The position numbers and the translations under genes were made by a program. 64,000 nt of DNA from Haloferax litoreum (GTDB lineage: Archaea; Halobacteriota; Halobacteria; Halobacteriales; Haloferacaceae), in contig NZ_WKJO01000001.1 of the NCBI RefSeq assembly GCF_009674605.1, positions 186,001 through 250,000 on the forward strand. Reading direction: 5' to 3'. Below the pieces are notes generated by a model. That model searched no databases. It was given only the letters and a program-made list of their open reading frames with translations, and had not been told where the DNA came from. Positions 3,943 through 13,092 of the stretch are shown in pieces (within the stretch, counting starts at the first letter, position 1; each line of letters begins with the position of its first letter).

Positions 3943-4240
3943 GCACTCAGCTCGCCCCACGTAACTCGCAACCTCTCCGAGATTGCTCACCACCATGGGA
4001 CTGCACTTCGTATATGCAGGTAGCGCGACGGCGACACAATAAGCTTACTTTTCGCGTCGGGTCGTCACCCACCAAATTCGGTGGACGTGAGCGGGCCAGT
4101 TGCTACCAAGCACCGAGACCAGACACCGAAGGACGATGTTCGTCGGACGACCCCTTAATAATACGACACATTCCCACGGTCTTGGAATCTCTGTGCAATC
4201 ATATCCCCTCACGAGTCCTACACTCACCTGTGAACCACCC
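3943..4240. other. Gap between tRNA-Gln and the dsrE-like gene
   Basis: About 300 bases without a convincing gene. It holds the 60-base duplication of the tRNA 5' end, a TATA-like sequence for the tRNA, and toward 4150-4165 an AT-rich stretch (CCTTAATAATACGACAC) that could be the promoter for the sulfur-carrier operon on the plus strand. An open frame from 4100 runs into the dsrE-like gene but its translation before 4241 is not family-like. Confidence 0.5.
3991..4007 (-). repeat. Copy of the tRNA-Gln 5' end and leader
   Basis: The 17 bases at 3991-4007 are identical to 3931-3947, which span the first bases of tRNA-Gln and its 5' leader. The period is exactly 60 bases. No second cloverleaf can be folded between the copies, so this is a fragment or a local duplication rather than a second tRNA. 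A TATA-like CATATA lies just upstream on the minus strand (near 4010-4016), so transcription may begin next to this outer copy. Confidence 0.65.
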
Positions 4241-4639
4241 ATGACTGGCTACGCAATTGTACTCGAATCCGCACGTCTCGAACGGCTCCAGGCCGTTGGC
4301 AACATCGCAGCAATCGCCGCTGCATCGGAGGTCCCGGTGGACATCTTCGCAACCATGGGCGGTCTTGAAGCGTTCGATAAAGAGCGCATCGCGTCGATGG
4401 ACTACGAGATGGGCGAAGTCGGCCAGGCGATGATGCAAGCCGAAGGGATGGAGATGGCGATGTTCTACGAGAACATCGCGCAGGCGAAAGAACTCGGCCC
4501 GCTCAGCGTCTACGCGTGTGAACTGTCCATGGACATGCTCGGTAAAACCCTCGACGACTACCACGAAGTCTTCGACGACGTGCTCGGCGTCTCGGGCTTC
4601 CTGTCCCACGCAGAAGACAAGCAGGTGATATTCGTCTAA
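4241..4639 (+). CDS. DsrE/DsrF-like sulfur-carrier family protein
   Basis: A 132-residue protein of the DsrE/DsrF/DrsH-like superfamily (peroxiredoxin-like sulfur transfer proteins). Seen: MTGYAIVLESARLERLQAVGNIAAIAAASEVPVDIF in the beta-alpha-beta opening, a methionine-rich middle (EMGEVGQAMMQAEGMEMAMFYENI, about 56-79), and a single conserved-position cysteine, Cys93, in VYACELS, the likely persulfide carrier. The start at 4241 is chosen because similarity begins there. It is first in a co-oriented group with TusA, an SQR-like flavoprotein and DUF1641. Inferred role: accepts or donates sulfane sulfur together with TusA. Confidence 0.85.
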   Translation: MTGYAIVLESARLERLQAVGNIAAIAAASEVPVDIFATMGGLEAFDKERIASMDYEMGEVGQAMMQAEGMEMAMFYENIAQAKELGPLSVYACELSMDMLGKTLDDYHEVFDDVLGVSGFLSHAEDKQVIFV

Positions 4640-4712
4640 ACACTGTCCTGAGCGACCGAATACCACCGGCGAATCGCCATCCAACCACCACAACCCAACA
4701 CAACCCACGACA

Positions 4713-4961
4713 ATGAGCGAATCAATCCAACCCGACGTGACCGTCGACTCCCGCGGAGCGACCTGCCCCGGTCCCCTCATGGACCTCATCGGCAAAGTAA
4801 AGAAACTCGAACCCGGCACCGTCGTCGAACTCCTGACGACCGACAGTTCGTCCAGCCACGACGTCCCCGAGTGGGTCGACAAGGCCGGCCACGAGACGCT
4901 GGACGTCGTCGAACACGAAGACGAGGGCTACTGGTCTGTCTTCATCGAGACCACGAAGTAA
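4713..4961 (+). CDS. tusA: TusA-family sulfurtransferase
   Basis: An 82-residue SirA/TusA-fold protein. Seen: the family motif CPGPL at 18-22 in DSRGATCPGPLMDL, with Cys18 as the persulfide carrier, followed by the usual LEPGTVVELLTTD and the alpha/beta remainder ending YWSVFIE. The family moves sulfur between proteins in tRNA thiolation, molybdopterin sulfuration or sulfur oxidation. Located 73 bases after the dsrE-like gene and 54 before the flavoprotein, so the four genes probably act together. In this context sulfur oxidation/relay is more likely than tRNA thiolation, but that is inference. Confidence 0.92.
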   Translation: MSESIQPDVTVDSRGATCPGPLMDLIGKVKKLEPGTVVELLTTDSSSSHDVPEWVDKAGHETLDVVEHEDEGYWSVFIETTK

Positions 4962-5015
4962 CACCCGCGACGCGCGGCCTCACGGCCGAAGCATCCAACA
5001 TTATCCACACTCACT

Positions 5016-6164
5016 ATGACAGAACGAATTGTAATCGTCGGTGGCGGCACGGGCGGAACCGTCCTCACCAATCGACTCACCGACGAACTCGCCCACGAAA
5101 TCGACGCCGGTGACGTCGAAGTGACGCTGGTCAACGACACGCCGGAACAGACGTACAAGCCGGCGTTCCTCTACGTCGCCTTCGGAAAGAAGACGATGCA
5201 CGAGGCGCGTCGTCCGCTGTCCGACCTCGTCGACCTCCGGCACGCGAACCTCCTCATCGACCGCGTCACCGGAATCGACACCGAGAACAAACACCTGACG
5301 CTGGCGAACGACGAGGGTGGACTCGACTACGACCACCTCGTCCTCGCGATGGGTGCCAACCTGGACCCAGACGAAGTTCCCGGCCTCAAAGAGGGAGGCC
5401 ACCACTTCTACGGCCCCAACGGTGCCGAGAAGCTTCGTGACGCCCTCGCTGGCTTCACCGAAGGCCACGTCGTCCTGTCTGTCATCGGCGTCCCGCACAT
5501 GTGCCCTGCGGCACCTGTCGAGTTCGTGTTGATGGCCGACGCGTGGTTCCGCGAACGCGGCATCCGCGACCAGGTCGAGATTACCTACACGTACCCCATC
5601 ATGCGGGCACACGGTATCCAGTCCATCGCCGACTGGGCGACCGAACTCTTCGACGAACGTGACATCAACCTAGAGACGTTCTTCAACGCCGAAGAAATCG
5701 ACCCTGAGGCGAACGTCGTCAAGACGATGGAGGGGACCGAACTCGACTACGACCTCCTCGTCGCCATCCCGCCACACACGGGCAGCGAACTCGTGTCCGA
5801 CGCGGGCCTCGGCGACGATGGCTGGGTCGAAGTCGACAAGAACACGCTCGAAGCGACGAACGCCGACGACGTGTACGCTATCGGTGACGTGGCCGCCCTC
5901 CCCACCTCGAAGGCTGGGAGCGTCGCCCACTACGCGGCCGGAACTGTCGCCGGCCGCCTCGCCAGTCGCGTCCGCGGCCTCGTCCCCACCGAGACGTACG
6001 ACGGCAAGACCATCTGCTTCATCGAGAGTGGGATGGACGAAGCGACGTTCGTCGAGTTCGGATACGGCGACGAACCAGTGGTCCGCGAGCCATCACAATT
6101 GCTCCACTGGAGCAAACTCGCGTACAACGAATCGTACTGGCTCACCGCCAGAGGTCTCATCTGA
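5016..6164 (+). CDS. SQR-like NAD(P)/FAD-dependent oxidoreductase
   Basis: A 382-residue flavoprotein of the sulfide:quinone oxidoreductase / type II NADH dehydrogenase group. Seen: N-terminal FAD motif IVIVGGGTGGTVLTNRL (about 5-21), LVLAMGANLDPDEVPGL (about 108-124), and the second FAD block VYAIGDVAALPTSKAG (about 287-301). Only two cysteines are present: Cys163 in PHMCPAAPVEF and Cys334 in TICFIESG, both at places where SQR enzymes carry redox cysteines; the third SQR cysteine is absent. Inferred: membrane-associated oxidation of sulfide or of a protein persulfide, with electrons to quinone. Its neighbours TusA and DsrE support a sulfur role. DUF1641 starts 10 bases downstream. Confidence 0.82.
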   Translation: MTERIVIVGGGTGGTVLTNRLTDELAHEIDAGDVEVTLVNDTPEQTYKPAFLYVAFGKKTMHEARRPLSDLVDLRHANLLIDRVTGIDTENKHLTLANDEGGLDYDHLVLAMGANLDPDEVPGLKEGGHHFYGPNGAEKLRDALAGFTEGHVVLSVIGVPHMCPAAPVEFVLMADAWFRERGIRDQVEITYTYPIMRAHGIQSIADWATELFDERDINLETFFNAEEIDPEANVVKTMEGTELDYDLLVAIPPHTGSELVSDAGLGDDGWVEVDKNTLEATNADDVYAIGDVAALPTSKAGSVAHYAAGTVAGRLASRVRGLVPTETYDGKTICFIESGMDEATFVEFGYGDEPVVREPSQLLHWSKLAYNESYWLTARGLI

Positions 6165-6173
6165 GGTGACACG

Positions 6174-6902
6174 ATGAGTGATTCATCCACCGAGACGACA
6201 GAGACAGAACGCGAAGAGACCACCGTGAGCGACGAGGAGACGACTGCGGCAGAGTCTGAGGTGTCCGACGAAGTGAAGACTGCCGACGAGGCGCGCGACG
6301 CACTCGAAGCGGCTATCGCCGAACACCCCGACGAAGTCGTCGCGTTCGTCGAGCGAGTAGGGCTGCTGAACGAACTCCTCGACGCGACGTCGCTCGCCAC
6401 GTCCGCCATGGACGACGAGATGGTGACCAAACTCGCCGGTACCTCGTCGTTGCTGATGGAGTCGGCAGACGGCCTCGCCACCCGAGAGATGTCCCACCTC
6501 GCGGGCGAAGTCGGTGAGAACGCGGGCGAGCTCGAGAGTGCTCTCGAGAAGCTCATCCGCCTCGAACGGGATGGCACACTCGACGAACTCACGCAGGCGG
6601 CCGACGCTATCACCCTCGCCACGTCCGCACTGGACGACGAGATGGTGGTGAAGTTGGCCAAGACCGGGAGTTCGCTCGGGGAAGTCGCCGACACGGCGAG
6701 TGACCCCGACACCGTCCGCGCTATCCAGACGATGCTACGCGGCATGGGCGAAGCAGGTAGCGAACCGCCGAAGCGTACCGGAACCATCGGTATGGTTCGG
6801 CAACTTCGCGACCCGGAGGTCCAGCGTGGAATGAACTTCCTGTTGGCACTCGCCCGCGGTATCGGCAGTGACCTCGACACGCTCGACGAATCGCGTGCAT
6901 AG
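6174..6902 (+). CDS. DUF1641 family protein with internal duplication
   Basis: A 242-residue protein. Seen: an acidic Thr/Glu-rich N-terminus (about 1-45), a conserved helical core, and the DUF1641 end block GTIGMVRQLRDPEVQRGMNFLLALARGIG (about 202-230; given as pieces of a longer conserved run). Two parts of the core repeat each other: LATSAMDDEMVTKLAGT (about 77-93) and LATSALDDEMVVKLAKT (about 143-159). The family often sits next to SQR-like or formate-dehydrogenase-type oxidoreductases; its function is unknown. It follows the flavoprotein by 10 bases and is almost surely in the same transcript. Possible role: accessory or scaffold for the flavoprotein. Confidence 0.83.
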   Translation: MSDSSTETTETEREETTVSDEETTAAESEVSDEVKTADEARDALEAAIAEHPDEVVAFVERVGLLNELLDATSLATSAMDDEMVTKLAGTSSLLMESADGLATREMSHLAGEVGENAGELESALEKLIRLERDGTLDELTQAADAITLATSALDDEMVVKLAKTGSSLGEVADTASDPDTVRAIQTMLRGMGEAGSEPPKRTGTIGMVRQLRDPEVQRGMNFLLALARGIGSDLDTLDESRA

Positions 6903-6958
6903 TCACCTGAACGGCCTCGGGGCAATCCCCGAGGTATCCGTCTCGTATTTCTGTAGAA

Positions 6959-7411
6959 TCAGTCGGCGACTTCTGTCTCTGTCTCCGCCTCTGTGCCGCA
7001 CACGTCGAGAAACTCACACGCGTCGGCTTCGGGGTCGAAACAGTCGGGACACTCCGAGTTTCGGTCGATGATGGTGTCGAGCCGGCCCGCAATCATGTCG
7101 TCGATGACCGGTTCGAGTTCGCGGGCCTCGGCGCGGAACTCCTCGACGTCGAGGACGTTCGAGAGGAATCGTTCGATGATGCAGTACGTCTGGAGCGCAT
7201 CGCGGGCGCGGATGATTCCCTCGTCCGTCAGCGTGACACCCTTGTACTTCTCGTGTTCGGCGAGGCCACGGGATTCGAGTTTTCCAATCATCTCGTTGGC
7301 ACTCGCCGGACTCACGTCCATCATGTCAGCGAGCGCACCCGTCGCGGCCGGGCCGTTTTCCATCTCTTGCAACAGGTAAATCGCCTTGACGTATTGGTCT
7401 GCGGTGTTCAT
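6959..7411 (-). CDS. DtxR-family transcription regulator with four-cysteine tail
   Basis: A 150-residue regulator. Seen: N-terminal winged helix (MNTADQYVKAIYLLQEM to VSPASANEMIGKLESRGL, 1-50; wing HEKYKGVTLTDEG), then the dimerization helices. Where DtxR/MntR proteins have Glu-His metal ligands, this has ELEPV (98-102), so the histidine is lost. The tail has Cys121-x2-Cys124-x7-Cys132-x5-Cys138, plus Cys77, which could hold zinc or an Fe-S cluster. There is no SH3/FeoA domain. It starts 4 bases after the ferritin-like gene, so they form an operon. Inferred role: iron or Fe-S responsive control, possibly by a non-standard sensing site. Confidence 0.88.
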   Translation of the reverse strand: MNTADQYVKAIYLLQEMENGPAATGALADMMDVSPASANEMIGKLESRGLAEHEKYKGVTLTDEGIIRARDALQTYCIIERFLSNVLDVEEFRAEARELEPVIDDMIAGRLDTIIDRNSECPDCFDPEADACEFLDVCGTEAETETEVAD

Positions 7412-9305: not shown

Positions 9306-10517
9306 CTACTTCAGACGCGCGGCGATGAGTTCTTCGAGGTCCTCGCGGAACTCGTCGACCTCTATCTCTTCGAGGACTGGCACGAAGAAGCCCTCCACGA
9401 GCATGTTGCGTGCCGTCTGCTCGGGGATGGACCGAGAGGCCATGTAGAAGAGGTCCTCTTTGTCCACCTGTCCGACCGTCGCGGCGTGCGACGCTTCGGT
9501 GTCGTGGTTGTTGATGATGAGCTTCGGCGACGCGTCTGCTTCGGACTCGTCCGAGAGCATCAGCGTGTTCTCACGCTGGTAGGAGTTCGTACTCCACGCG
9601 TCGCGGCCGACGTCCTGGACACCTTCGTAGACCGAGCGTGCGCGGTCGTCGAGGACGCCACGGGTCACGAGGTCTGCGGTCGTGTTCTCGGCTTTGTGCC
9701 AGACACGAGCGTTGACGTCGAGGTGCTGCTCGTTGTGACCGAAGAACGCGCCGACGATTTTCGTCTCCGAAGCGTCGCCGTTGAGTTCGGTCTCGACGTC
9801 GCTACGGGTGAGGCGCGACCCGAGGTTCCCCTCGATCCAGTTGATGGTCGAGTAGGTACCGGCGTCGCCGCGCTTGAGCGAGTACGTGTAGGTGTCTTCG
9901 TCGAGGTTCTGGAGCGACCCGTACTGGACGTACGAGTTCTCGCCCGCGTCGATTTCGACGAGGTTCGAGAAGTACCGCTCACCCTCCACGTCGGCGTCAC
10001 CGGACTCGGTGCCTTCGAGGATGGTGACCGACGAGGACTTCTCGGTCACGACGAGCGTGTGACTGAAGAGCGACCGAGAGTTCATCTCGGCGCGAATCTT
10101 CACGTCTTCGGCGTTCACGTCTTCTGGGACGTAGATGAACGTACCCGTGGTGAACAGCGCCGCAGACAGCGCCGTGAGGTAGTTCGTCTCGAGGTCGAGG
10201 ACGGAACCGAAGCGCTCCTCGATGAGGTCACCGTACTCGTCGAGTGCCTCCGTGAAGGGGAGGACGACGACGTCGTCGGGTGCCTCGCGGGTCGTCTCGT
10301 CGGACTGGTTCAGCGGGTCGACGAGCGACTCGAAGTCGAGGGCTTCGAGGTTCGTCCATCGGCGGCCCGGCGTCTGGATGACGTCGGGGAGTTCGAGCGT
10401 GTCGAGTGCTTCGAGGGCCTCGAGTCGGGCCTCGAGAAGCCACTCTGGCTCGTCCCGTGCGTCCGAAATCTCTCGTACTGTCTGTTCAGACAGGTTGGCG
10501 GGAAGTTGCGCACTCAT
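9306..10517 (-). CDS. sufD: Fe-S cluster assembly protein SufD
   Basis: A 403-residue SufD protein, the partner of SufB in the SufBC2D scaffold that assembles Fe-S clusters in the cytoplasm. Seen: an N-terminal helical region with ARDEPEWLLEARLEALEAL (about 20-38), the right-handed beta-helix core, and a C-terminal block NHDTEASHAATVGQVDKEDLFYMASR with the conserved histidines (about 338-363). It starts 3 bases after the sufB stop and closes the sufCBD operon. No sufS or sufE is present in the window, so the cysteine desulfurase must be elsewhere. Confidence 0.95.
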   Translation of the reverse strand: MSAQLPANLSEQTVREISDARDEPEWLLEARLEALEALDTLELPDVIQTPGRRWTNLEALDFESLVDPLNQSDETTREAPDDVVVLPFTEALDEYGDLIEERFGSVLDLETNYLTALSAALFTTGTFIYVPEDVNAEDVKIRAEMNSRSLFSHTLVVTEKSSSVTILEGTESGDADVEGERYFSNLVEIDAGENSYVQYGSLQNLDEDTYTYSLKRGDAGTYSTINWIEGNLGSRLTRSDVETELNGDASETKIVGAFFGHNEQHLDVNARVWHKAENTTADLVTRGVLDDRARSVYEGVQDVGRDAWSTNSYQRENTLMLSDESEADASPKLIINNHDTEASHAATVGQVDKEDLFYMASRSIPEQTARNMLVEGFFVPVLEEIEVDEFREDLEELIAARLK

Positions 10518-10520
10518 TGG

Positions 10521-11951
10521 TTATCCGAGGCTACCCTCCATCTCGAGTTCGACGAGTCGGTTGAGTTCGACTGCGTACTCGATGGGCAGTTCCTCCGTGA
10601 TGGGTTCGATGAACCCGGAGACGATCATCTGCTTTGCGTCGTCGTCGTCGAGACCGCGCGACTGGAGGTAGAAGATGTCCTCGTCGCCAATCTTCCCGAC
10701 GGTCGCCTCGTGAGCGACGTCCACGGTAGACTCGTTAATCTCCATGTACGGCATCGTGTCCGAAGTGGACTCGTTGTCGAACATCAGCGCGTCACACTCG
10801 ACTGCCGTCGAGGAGTTGGTCGCGCCGTTGGCGATGTGGACGAGGCCGCGGTAGTTGGTGCGGCCGCCATCTTTCGAGATGGACTTCGACTCGATGGTCG
10901 ACTTCGTGTCCGGGGCGTTGTGGTAGACCTTCGCACCGGTGTCGATGTTCTGGCCTTCACCCGCGAAGGCGATGGTGATGTGGTTGTCGGACGCGCCGCG
11001 GCCCTTCAGGATGGACGCGGGGTAGAGCATGGTGGCCTTCGAGCCCATCGAGCCCGAAATCCACTCCATGCGCCCGTTCTTCTCGACGATGGCACGCTTC
11101 GTGTTGAGGTTGTACGTGTTCTTCGACCAGTTCTGGACGGTCGAATACTGCACGTGTGCGTCCTCGCCGACGAACACTTCGACGCCGCCGGAGTGAAGGT
11201 TGAACGCGGAGTATTTGGGTGCCGAACAGCCCTCGATGTAGTGGACTTCGGAGCCCTTCTCCGCGACGATGAGCGTGTGTTCGAACTGGCCCATCCCCTC
11301 GGAGTTCATGCGGAAGTACGCCTGCACCGGCATGTCGACCGTCGTGTCCTCGGGGACGTAGACGAACGACCCGCCGGACCAGATTGCGCCGTGGAGCGCG
11401 GCGAACTTGTTGTCGCTCGGGGGAACACACTTCGTCATGAAGTACTCCTTGACGATGTCTTCGTGCTCTTGGACCGCCTGGTCCATGTTCATGAAGACGA
11501 CGCCCTTCTCCTCCCAGCGCTCCTGCATGTTCTGGTAGACGACTTCGGACTCGTACTGGGCACCGACACCCGAGAGGGCGTTCTTCTCGGCTTCCGGGAT
11601 ACCCAGTTTGTCGAAGGTGTCTTTGATGTCGTCCGGCAGGTCACGCCAGTCGTCGACACCGCCGCGGACTTCGACGTCCGGGCGGATGTACGGGACGATT
11701 TCGTCCACGTCGACCTTGGAGAGGTCTGGCTGGCCGGGCCAGTCGGTCGGCATCGGCATCTTCTGGTACTGCTTGAGCGCGCGAAGGCGGCGCTCCAGCA
11801 TCCATTCGGGCTCGTCTTTGTCTTCCGAGATGACGCGGATGGTCTCTTCGGTGAGACCCTTCTCGGCCGCGAACGCGGCCTTCTGCTCCTTCTTGAACTC
11901 GAAGCGAGCTTCCGTGTCTGTCTCTTTTAGGTGGTCTTGGTCGGAACTCAT
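10521..11951 (-). CDS. sufB: Fe-S cluster assembly protein SufB
   Basis: A 476-residue SufB scaffold. Seen: EPEWMLERRLRAL near the N-terminus (about 48-60), VGAQYESEVVYQNM, the conserved KCVPPSDNKFAALHGAIWSGGSFVY in pieces, HYIEGCSAP (conserved cysteine of the core), MGSKATMLYP and the C-terminal VDVAHEATVGKIGDEDIFYLQSRG (given in part). Length is normal for the family. It begins 15 bases after sufC. Together with SufC ATPase and SufD it builds nascent clusters; the order C-B-D is usual in archaea. Confidence 0.97.
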   Translation of the reverse strand: MSSDQDHLKETDTEARFEFKKEQKAAFAAEKGLTEETIRVISEDKDEPEWMLERRLRALKQYQKMPMPTDWPGQPDLSKVDVDEIVPYIRPDVEVRGGVDDWRDLPDDIKDTFDKLGIPEAEKNALSGVGAQYESEVVYQNMQERWEEKGVVFMNMDQAVQEHEDIVKEYFMTKCVPPSDNKFAALHGAIWSGGSFVYVPEDTTVDMPVQAYFRMNSEGMGQFEHTLIVAEKGSEVHYIEGCSAPKYSAFNLHSGGVEVFVGEDAHVQYSTVQNWSKNTYNLNTKRAIVEKNGRMEWISGSMGSKATMLYPASILKGRGASDNHITIAFAGEGQNIDTGAKVYHNAPDTKSTIESKSISKDGGRTNYRGLVHIANGATNSSTAVECDALMFDNESTSDTMPYMEINESTVDVAHEATVGKIGDEDIFYLQSRGLDDDDAKQMIVSGFIEPITEELPIEYAVELNRLVELEMEGSLG

Positions 11952-11966
11952 GGTGTGTAGGTTGGT

Positions 11967-12872
11967 TTACGCGGCCTCGTAGACTTCCTCGCGGACCCAG
12001 TCGTACCCCTTGTCTTCGAGTTCGGACGCGAGGGACGCGTCGCCGCTCTTGACGACCTTTCCGTCCAGCATGATGTGGACGTGGTCGGGTTCGACGTATT
12101 CGAGGATACGCTGGTAGTGCGTAATCTGGAGGATACCCGTGCCCTGCTCGTCGCGGAGCGCGTTGATACCCTTCGAGACGTCCTGCAGGCGGTCGATGTC
12201 GAGACCGGAGTCGATCTCGTCGAGCACTGCGATGGACGGTTCGAGGATTGCTGCCTGCAGAACCTCGTTCTGTTTCTTCTCACCGCCGGAGAACCCGGCG
12301 TTGAGGTAGCGCTGCATGAACTTCTCGTCCATGTCGAGGAGGTCCATCTTCTCCTTGAGGAGCTTCTGGAACTCGGCGACGCCGATTTCGCCGTCGTCGA
12401 CGTTCCCCTCCATCGGGGAGGTGTCGTAGCCGACGTCCTCTTCTTCTTCTTCCTCGTCATCGCCGAAGAGGAGTTCTTCGCGCTCGTCGAGTTTCGCGTT
12501 GAGCGCGGTGCGGAGGAAGTTCGTCATGGTGACGCCTTCGATTTCCGCGGGGTACTGGAAGCCGAGGAAGATACCGAGCGCGGCGCGCTCGTTCGGTTCC
12601 AGTTCCAGAAGGTTCCACGTGCGGGCGTCGTCCGGAATGTCGACGTCACCGAAGTCGCCCTCTTCCAGGTGGAGGAGGATTTCGCCGTCGGTTACCTCGT
12701 AGGCGGGGTGGCCGGCGATGATTTTAGAAGTCGTAGACTTGCCGGACCCGTTGGGACCCATCAGTGCGTGGATCTCGCCGGATTTGACTTCCAGGTCGAC
12801 ACCTCGCAGAATCTGCTCACCGTCTTCCTCCGCGACACGTGCGTGGAGGTTCTTGATCTCGAGAGTTGCCAT
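11967..12872 (-). CDS. sufC: Fe-S cluster assembly ATPase SufC
   Basis: A 301-residue ABC-type ATPase of the SUF system. Seen: Walker A GPNGSGKST (about 38-46), signature FSGGEKKQNE, Walker B IAVLDEIDSGLDID and the H-loop ITHYQRILEYV. Bacterial SufC is about 250 residues; the extra length is partly a strongly acidic insertion, GDDEEEEEEDVGYD, between the Q-loop and signature, followed by a second acidic stretch. The ATG at 12872 is used because MATLEIKNLHARV is the family start; an in-frame ATG at 12935 adds an unrelated extension. First gene of sufCBD. Confidence 0.95.
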   Translation of the reverse strand: MATLEIKNLHARVAEEDGEQILRGVDLEVKSGEIHALMGPNGSGKSTTSKIIAGHPAYEVTDGEILLHLEEGDFGDVDIPDDARTWNLLELEPNERAALGIFLGFQYPAEIEGVTMTNFLRTALNAKLDEREELLFGDDEEEEEEDVGYDTSPMEGNVDDGEIGVAEFQKLLKEKMDLLDMDEKFMQRYLNAGFSGGEKKQNEVLQAAILEPSIAVLDEIDSGLDIDRLQDVSKGINALRDEQGTGILQITHYQRILEYVEPDHVHIMLDGKVVKSGDASLASELEDKGYDWVREEVYEAA

Positions 12873-12890
12873 CGTTGGTTCGTTGCCTCG

Positions 12891-12920
12891 TACTCGAACC
12901 CTGGGGAGTATCGCCCATAA
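12891..12920 (-). promoter_or_regulatory. Candidate sufC promoter with inverted repeat
   Basis: In the 220 bases between polB and sufC, a TATA-like CATTATG (minus strand, near 12915-12921) lies upstream of an inverted repeat TACTC-N10-GAGTA (12891-12895 and 12906-12910), which is 19-38 bases before the sufC start. The position between promoter and gene would suit a repressor. No binding protein can be named from sequence. A second AT-rich run lies near 12953-12972. Confidence 0.35.
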
Positions 12921-13092
12921 TGCTTGCGCATTCACCCCCGGTGCCTTTTGTAGAAAGAAAAATTGTTTTCAAATCCGCAAAGAAGACGTGATGGTTCGTG
13001 ACATACGTCCGGGTTTCGGGTAGCCGAACATCGGTTCGTCTTCGGTAGGCGCGTAACCACGTATGGTTACGTTGGCGGTCTCGTCGCGGTTC

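Follow-up and report, generated by a model that had tools for sequence, protein, structure and literature searches.

Sulfide:quinone oxidoreductases (SQRs) are usually treated as self-sufficient monotopic membrane enzymes and, to our knowledge, the solved SQRs work without a partner of the DUF1641 family. Relatives of DUF1641 accompany other enzymes, namely the NDH-2 protein YjlD, the formate dehydrogenase ForCE and the hydrogenase Huc. Here we describe an operon of the archaeon Haloferax litoreum in which an SQR gene is directly followed by a DUF1641 gene and preceded by genes for a DsrE-like and a TusA-family protein (Table 1). It is located in a window of 64,000 nucleotides (contig NZ_WKJO01000001.1, positions 186,001 to 250,000), by which we mean the whole stretch of DNA that was analysed. 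The operon probably codes for a peripheral sulfide:menaquinone oxidoreductase, in which DUF1641 would couple the enzyme to the membrane and to quinone, while the sulfur would be passed to TusA and the DsrE-like protein. Papers are cited by their PMC number.

The closest described systems each share only part of this arrangement. YjlC-YjlD, which consists of NDH-2 and a membrane coupling protein (PDB 9snk, 9pxk, 9a63), also combines a flavoprotein that reduces quinone and belongs to the same fold class with a small DUF1641-related partner; the yjlC product is named DUF1641 (PMC12020853), and our SQR model matches the YjlD chain of 9a63 with a Z-score of 39.3. However, the substrate of YjlD is NADH and not sulfide. 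The formate dehydrogenase ForCE (ForE1, which is YjgD; PDB 8rqz) has a DUF1641 partner as well, and the DUF1641 proteins from haloarchaeal formate dehydrogenase (FDH) operons are homologous to that from the window, whereas the catalytic subunit of ForCE is a molybdenum/Fe-S enzyme which is unrelated to SQR. A C-terminal motif is common to DUF1641 and HucM from the [NiFe] hydrogenase Huc (PDB 7uus), but HucM serves a hydrogenase and forms a tetrameric stalk. The flavoprotein resembles SQRs (human SQOR, those of Aquifex and Acidithiobacillus, and the archaeal type III) in its fold, in the region for flavin adenine dinucleotide (FAD) and in its two candidate redox cysteines, although the Aquifex and Acidithiobacillus chains extend past its end. 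Finally, DsrE and TusA homologues occur in one cluster, DsrE3A-DsrE2B-TusA, in Metallosphaera cuprina, where TusA also has Cys18, but that cluster occurs with genes of hdr-like type and for lipoamide dehydrogenase rather than with SQR, and it carries thiosulfate rather than persulfide (PMC4175335). In Ignicoccus, a DUF1641 gene is numbered beside a gene for an FAD disulfide oxidoreductase, and both were raised in co-culture (PMC3149612). A description of a complex between SQR and DUF1641 was not found in the literature that was searched, with preprints and most subscription papers being outside this search.

A preliminary description of the window had assigned the flavoprotein to the SQR group, and this assignment was borne out. 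Its best match in PDB is human SQOR (E 5.7e-41), followed by 3h8i, which is labelled as NADH oxidase in the sequence search and titled as the first SQR structure in the structure search, and by flavocytochrome c. The AlphaFold2 (AF2) model (predicted local distance difference test, pLDDT, 93; predicted TM-score, pTM, 0.90) has an SQR fold and superimposes on human SQOR (8dhk) with a Z-score of 46.4 over 374 residues (root mean square deviation 2.2; TM-score 0.91). Cys163 and Cys334 align with cysteines from the motifs of human SQOR, which we take to be the catalytic residues Cys201 and Cys379. Both cysteines are invariant in 33 aligned sequences with identities down to 30%. At the C-terminus, two amphipathic helices for the membrane are usual for SQRs, while type VI SQRs and the SQR from Acidianus have one (PMC9666304). 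The AF2 model shows one helix (361-378) instead of the two that are typical for most SQR types, and the protein ends at a point that corresponds to residue 400 of the 429 residues in the SQR chain from Aquifex. Since the exceptions just named likewise have a single helix, this does not exclude SQR membership. SQR_III_seleno is the best NCBIfam family by far (E 1.1e-97), and judged by a score of 327.5 bits as compared to the cut-off of 525, the flavoprotein is nearest to this named type (type III, selenoprotein subtype) without being a member. With both candidate cysteines retained and with this model, the flavoprotein looks like a true SQR, most likely a sulfide:menaquinone oxidoreductase.

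The pairing of SQR with DUF1641 is highly conserved. In a family sample of 99 genomes, the SQR search gave 114 rows, all of which were used (63 strong and 51 weak), the strong matches being composed of 52 close SQRs with 51-100% identity and 11 distant ones with 26-34%. PF07849 is encoded within 1.5 kb downstream and on the same strand for 61 of the 63 strong SQRs. In one of the two exceptions, the DUF1641 gene is present (52% identity) with its end masked, and in the other the SQR stops 58 bases short of the contig end. As only about 0.01 such pairs are expected by chance, as compared to the 61 observed, the pairing is not fortuitous. No DUF1641 was found within 5 kb of any of the 51 weak flavoprotein matches, nor within 5 kb of the two weak, NDH-2-like matches from the H. 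litoreum genome itself.

The genes upstream of SQR are less constant. TusA is encoded directly upstream of at least 39 of the 52 close SQRs and of none of the 11 distant SQRs among the matches listed, with TusA counts being lower bounds which are based on 59 such matches, while DsrE is found upstream of only 4 of the 52 close SQRs. The order TusA-SQR-DUF1641 occurs in all 18 named relatives, which came from a pattern search favouring close relatives, and all four genes are present in order in 14 of them; the closest named relative of the SQR is from Haloferax profundi (98% identity). The conserved core is SQR plus DUF1641, with TusA being frequent and DsrE sporadic. We thus rejected the four-gene operon as the conserved unit, although it prevails among the nearest named loci. 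The preliminary description had named conserved synteny of the four genes as a check and had read the set as a device that brings sulfane sulfur from sulfide or persulfide oxidation to carrier proteins. Synteny holds for the SQR-DUF1641 core and, frequently, for TusA, but not for DsrE; a connection of such carriers with a flavoprotein that oxidises sulfide is supported by domains, conserved cysteines and synteny, except that the carriers do not belong to the core.

The pairing extends beyond the haloarchaea. DUF1641 is encoded in 58 genomes from a phylum-wide sample of 196. When 30 of these loci were fetched, an SQR homologue was found directly upstream and on the same strand in 26 cases, and one locus is cut at the contig start. 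In two loci from non-haloarchaeal members of the phylum (L098, where they follow SQR-DUF1641, and L111, where they follow a DUF1641 gene cut at the contig start), there are genes which by their look may code for respiratory membrane subunits. Bacteria and crenarchaea were sampled by 14 control genomes and by plasmids, where 10 of 118 records were read. On the Pseudomonas aeruginosa plasmid pKLC102, a conjugative element, an SQR with 34% identity is followed by DUF1641. A plasmid search with the DUF1641 protein from pKLC102 matched only its own record. Among the nine other plasmid SQR loci, one from Haloarcula has DUF1641.

DUF1641 also has other genomic homes. Of its 74 matches in the family sample, 13 are not located behind an SQR, and 10 of these belong to FDH operons, which also encode a NuoG-like Fe-S protein and two FDH-like proteins. 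One FDH locus (L029) and one MobA-like neighbour of L031 were scanned with Pfam and NCBIfam, which gave a match to Fdh-alpha with E 4.3e-248 for the former; the other nine were assigned by shared BLAST clusters. In these haloarchaeal FDH-like operons (L026-L033, L036, L037), two Fdh-alpha-like subunits flank DUF1641, so that they look like a split relative of ForCE. The remaining three copies seem to be remnants, one being located downstream of SQR fragments and two being short pieces. At L025, from the same genus, the DUF1641 gene has been retained while the upstream SQR is reduced to fragments. Overall, 71 of the 74 copies have an SQR or FDH neighbour, enzymes which are expected to reduce quinone. 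Homology between the SQR-type and FDH-type proteins extends over 194 columns (probability 99.8). DUF1641 proteins range in length from about 130 to about 310 residues, apparently by repetition of helical units. Tandem SQR-DUF1641 pairs occur at L049, L050 and L051, where the second DUF1641 is longer (about 310 residues).

In the preliminary description, DUF1641 was an unknown partner, a label which it need not retain. The protein from the window scores 52.9 bits against PF07849, above the gathering cut-off of 21. When searched against PDB as a single sequence, it matched ForE1 (E 0.0032) and HucM (E 0.007), while full-length profiles matched ForE1 (3.8e-5), HucM (7.5e-4) and YjlC (9.2e-6). As designed helical repeats scored similarly to these true matches with the full-length profiles, composition matters, and we relied upon a C-terminal profile of 54 positions instead. 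Among 177,635 PDB sequences, the top four matches of this profile were ForE1 (3.8e-4), HucM (1.4e-3), YjlC (7.7e-3) and a protein annotated as 'NDH-2 membrane coupling protein' (1.3e-2); the designed repeats had disappeared, and the fifth match, SMC6 (E 0.027), is taken as unrelated. The C-terminal helix is amphipathic, with a mean z of 1.56 over 23 related sequences.

All four solved relatives of the C-terminal motif are partners of quinone-reducing enzymes. ForE1 is needed for menaquinone coupling of formate dehydrogenase (PMC8808070), while HucM scaffolds Huc and its stalk has been proposed to carry menaquinone over 94 Å (PMC10017518). A homologue of HucM with 18% identity has been described from Acidianus (PMC11018855), and for Parageobacillus, whose Huc-type hydrogenase is the subject of PMC12976888, a DUF1641 gene is listed with a hydrogenase operon. 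As the relatives of DUF1641 include ForE, HucM and YjlC, coupling to quinone or the membrane is the best reading of its function. From the shared family and the logic of the operon, it is likely that DUF1641 supplies the membrane or quinone contact of the SQR. With somewhat less confidence, we consider DUF1641 to be a portable family of helical quinone adaptors, characterized by the C-terminal motif, which would link soluble or peripheral dehydrogenases with unrelated chemistries (hydrogenase, FDH, NDH-2 and, as indicated by synteny, sulfide oxidase) to the quinone pool of the membrane. Such adaptors would serve both archaea and bacteria, and in haloarchaea they would be used most commonly by the SQR branch.

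Several observations weigh against coupling by DUF1641 of an enzyme that feeds sulfide-derived sulfur to carriers. The E-values which connect DUF1641 to ForE1, HucM and YjlC are modest, similar scores for designed repeats were obtained with the full-length profiles as mentioned above, and the FDH-type profile (A3) alone did not match ForE1 significantly (E 0.89). The AF2 model of DUF1641 is all-helical but, with a pTM of 0.27, too uncertain for a fold, and a Foldseek search with this low-confidence model gave no match. The family link is thus based on sequence and operon context. Three of the 30 phylum loci have DUF1641 without SQR, one of them adjoining DsrE-type genes and TusA. The SQR-like protein from pKLC102 has no aligned counterpart of the second candidate redox cysteine and may therefore differ in its substrate. 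Eight of the ten plasmid SQR loci, including the Staphylococcus type II sqr, are without DUF1641, and SQR chemistry as such can therefore do without it. The tail after the second cysteine, which we had considered as a marker of DUF1641 dependence, had to be discarded, as the ranges for DUF1641-linked (48-53) and unlinked SQRs (51-67) overlap. On the sulfur side, TusA and DsrE3A from M. cuprina reacted with tetrathionate only and not with NaSH, polysulfide or glutathione persulfide (PMC4175335). Given these carrier results, TusA is a plausible candidate acceptor of sulfane sulfur.

The preliminary description had pointed to single cysteines in two sulfur carriers, and Cys93 of the DsrE-like protein and Cys18 of TusA are indeed the sole cysteines of these proteins. 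Including the window proteins, Cys93 is kept in 15 of 15 DsrE sequences and Cys18, the cysteine of the CPGP motif, in 19 of 19 TusA sequences, always as the only cysteine. By family and by its conserved CPGP cysteine, TusA belongs to the sulfur carriers, while this role is unproven for the DsrE-like protein: Cys93 is conserved, but the nearest solved relative is of DsrE2B type. This relative, 2qs7, is DsrE2B from Sulfolobus, and DsrE2B from M. cuprina was inert towards all sulfur compounds that were tried in the same paper (PMC4175335).

The H. litoreum genome contains two further SQR-DUF1641 pairs and a second DrsE_2-TusA pair, which adjoins a rhodanese/metallo-beta-lactamase protein. There are two such rhodanese/metallo-beta-lactamase proteins in all, one of them beside the most distant SQR pair. 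This third pair (L041, C1:1493500-1501500; SQR with 33% identity) has as neighbours this protein and a rhodanese-domain protein, one relative of which has weak helix-turn-helix matches. The rhodanese/metallo-beta-lactamase set looks like a persulfide-oxidising route.

The proposed mechanism takes its direct support from gene content, conserved gene order, conserved cysteines, the SQR fold of the model and the family membership of DUF1641. By homology, SQR would likely oxidise sulfide with FAD and Cys163/Cys334, so that the sulfane sulfur is left on a cysteine, and the electrons would pass to menaquinone and hence to the respiratory chain. DUF1641 would act as a non-catalytic partner which keeps SQR assembled, or keeps it at the membrane, and lets it reach quinone. 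TusA would take the sulfane sulfur. Where it is present, the DsrE-like protein would help in the further transfer of this sulfur, for which the rhodanese/metallo-beta-lactamase proteins from other parts of the genome are possible recipients. We moderately favour this route via TusA, with DsrE as an optional partner.

Alternatively, the operon might serve persulfide balance, in sulfide signalling or detoxification, rather than energy, with quinone as a mere sink and with TusA and DsrE being loaded for biosynthesis, e.g. for Fe-S assembly by SUF. Such a function, which is compatible with coupling by DUF1641, is conceivable but rather doubtful. While single-cysteine carriers are encoded within the operon and a SUF set (an ABC ATPase and two SufBD-core proteins, 9306-12935, - strand) is found about 2.4 kb away, the SUF genes do not share the strand of the operon, the DsrE gene is absent from most relatives, and the presence of a partner dedicated to coupling suggests that the delivery of electrons is of importance. 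A role in tRNA thiolation or one connected with molybdopterin was rejected: as had been stated before, no such gene is found among the neighbour genes scanned, and the operon combines the carriers with SQR.

It is unlikely that DUF1641 is an oligomerising scaffold only, by which SQR is assembled into a larger particle while reaching quinone by itself. The retention of one C-terminal helix by SQR, with type VI SQRs working with one (PMC9666304), and the lack of a clear difference in tail length between linked and unlinked SQRs fit such a scaffold, and upon deletion of hucM the Huc oligomer is lost while activity stays (PMC10017518). However, when ForE1 is missing, ForC1 no longer reduces menadione and has lost most of its bound menaquinone-7 (PMC8808070), and it is a quinone-reducing partner that the four solved relatives have in common. 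It is very improbable that the flavoprotein uses another sulfur substrate, derived from thiosulfate or tetrathionate, with DsrE and TusA moving thiosulfate in a Metallosphaera-like manner, for although thiosulfate derived from tetrathionate is carried by DsrE3A and TusA in M. cuprina, the DsrE protein from the window is closest to 2qs7 (DsrE2B type), the M. cuprina homologue of which was inert in the same study (PMC4175335), no hdr-like genes occur among the neighbours scanned, and motifs and fold of the SQR suit sulfide.

Table 1. Coordinates and properties of the operon genes and of two adjacent elements in the Haloferax litoreum window.
Feature	Position	Strand	Properties
DsrE-like gene	4241-4639	+	132 aa, lone Cys93; PF13686 (DrsE_2) E 3.1e-8; PDB 2qs7 E 2.3e-17
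TusA-family gene	4713-4961	+	82 aa, lone Cys18; PF01206 E 4.3e-19
SQR gene	5016-6164	+	382 aa; Pyr_redox_2 E 2.8e-23; candidate redox Cys163 and Cys334
DUF1641 gene	6174-6902	+	242 aa, predicted all-helical; PF07849 E 3.2e-14; proposed quinone/membrane-coupling subunit
Inverted repeat TTCC-N9-GGAA, before dsrE	4171-4187	+	candidate operator/promoter element
GC-rich hairpin between operon and DtxR-type gene	6915-6934	+	possible transcript end

The four genes, as originally delineated, have open reading frames throughout, are on one strand and span 4241-6902. The Pfam matches of all four proteins exceed the curated cut-offs, and the intergenic gaps, calculated from the coordinates, are 73 bases (DsrE-TusA), 54 bases (TusA-SQR) and 9 bases (SQR-DUF1641). 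The inverted repeat is part of a block which is common to the upstream regions of 5 Haloferax genomes. No further exact copy was found in the genome or the window, which argues against a regulon. The hairpin folds with -21.2 kcal/mol (z -2.5; interval 6900-6960) and is not immediately followed by a U-run; the gene downstream of it codes for a DtxR-type regulator and is convergent to the operon. Spacing, upstream block and hairpin context suggest that the four genes are co-transcribed.

If the proposed function is correct, a large archaeal branch of SQRs uses a separate coupling subunit, and a widespread domain of unknown function would be explained. The access of peripheral enzymes to quinone could then be tested directly in this system, and for many loci, in haloarchaea, other archaea and some bacteria, the annotation would become a prediction of sulfide oxidation.

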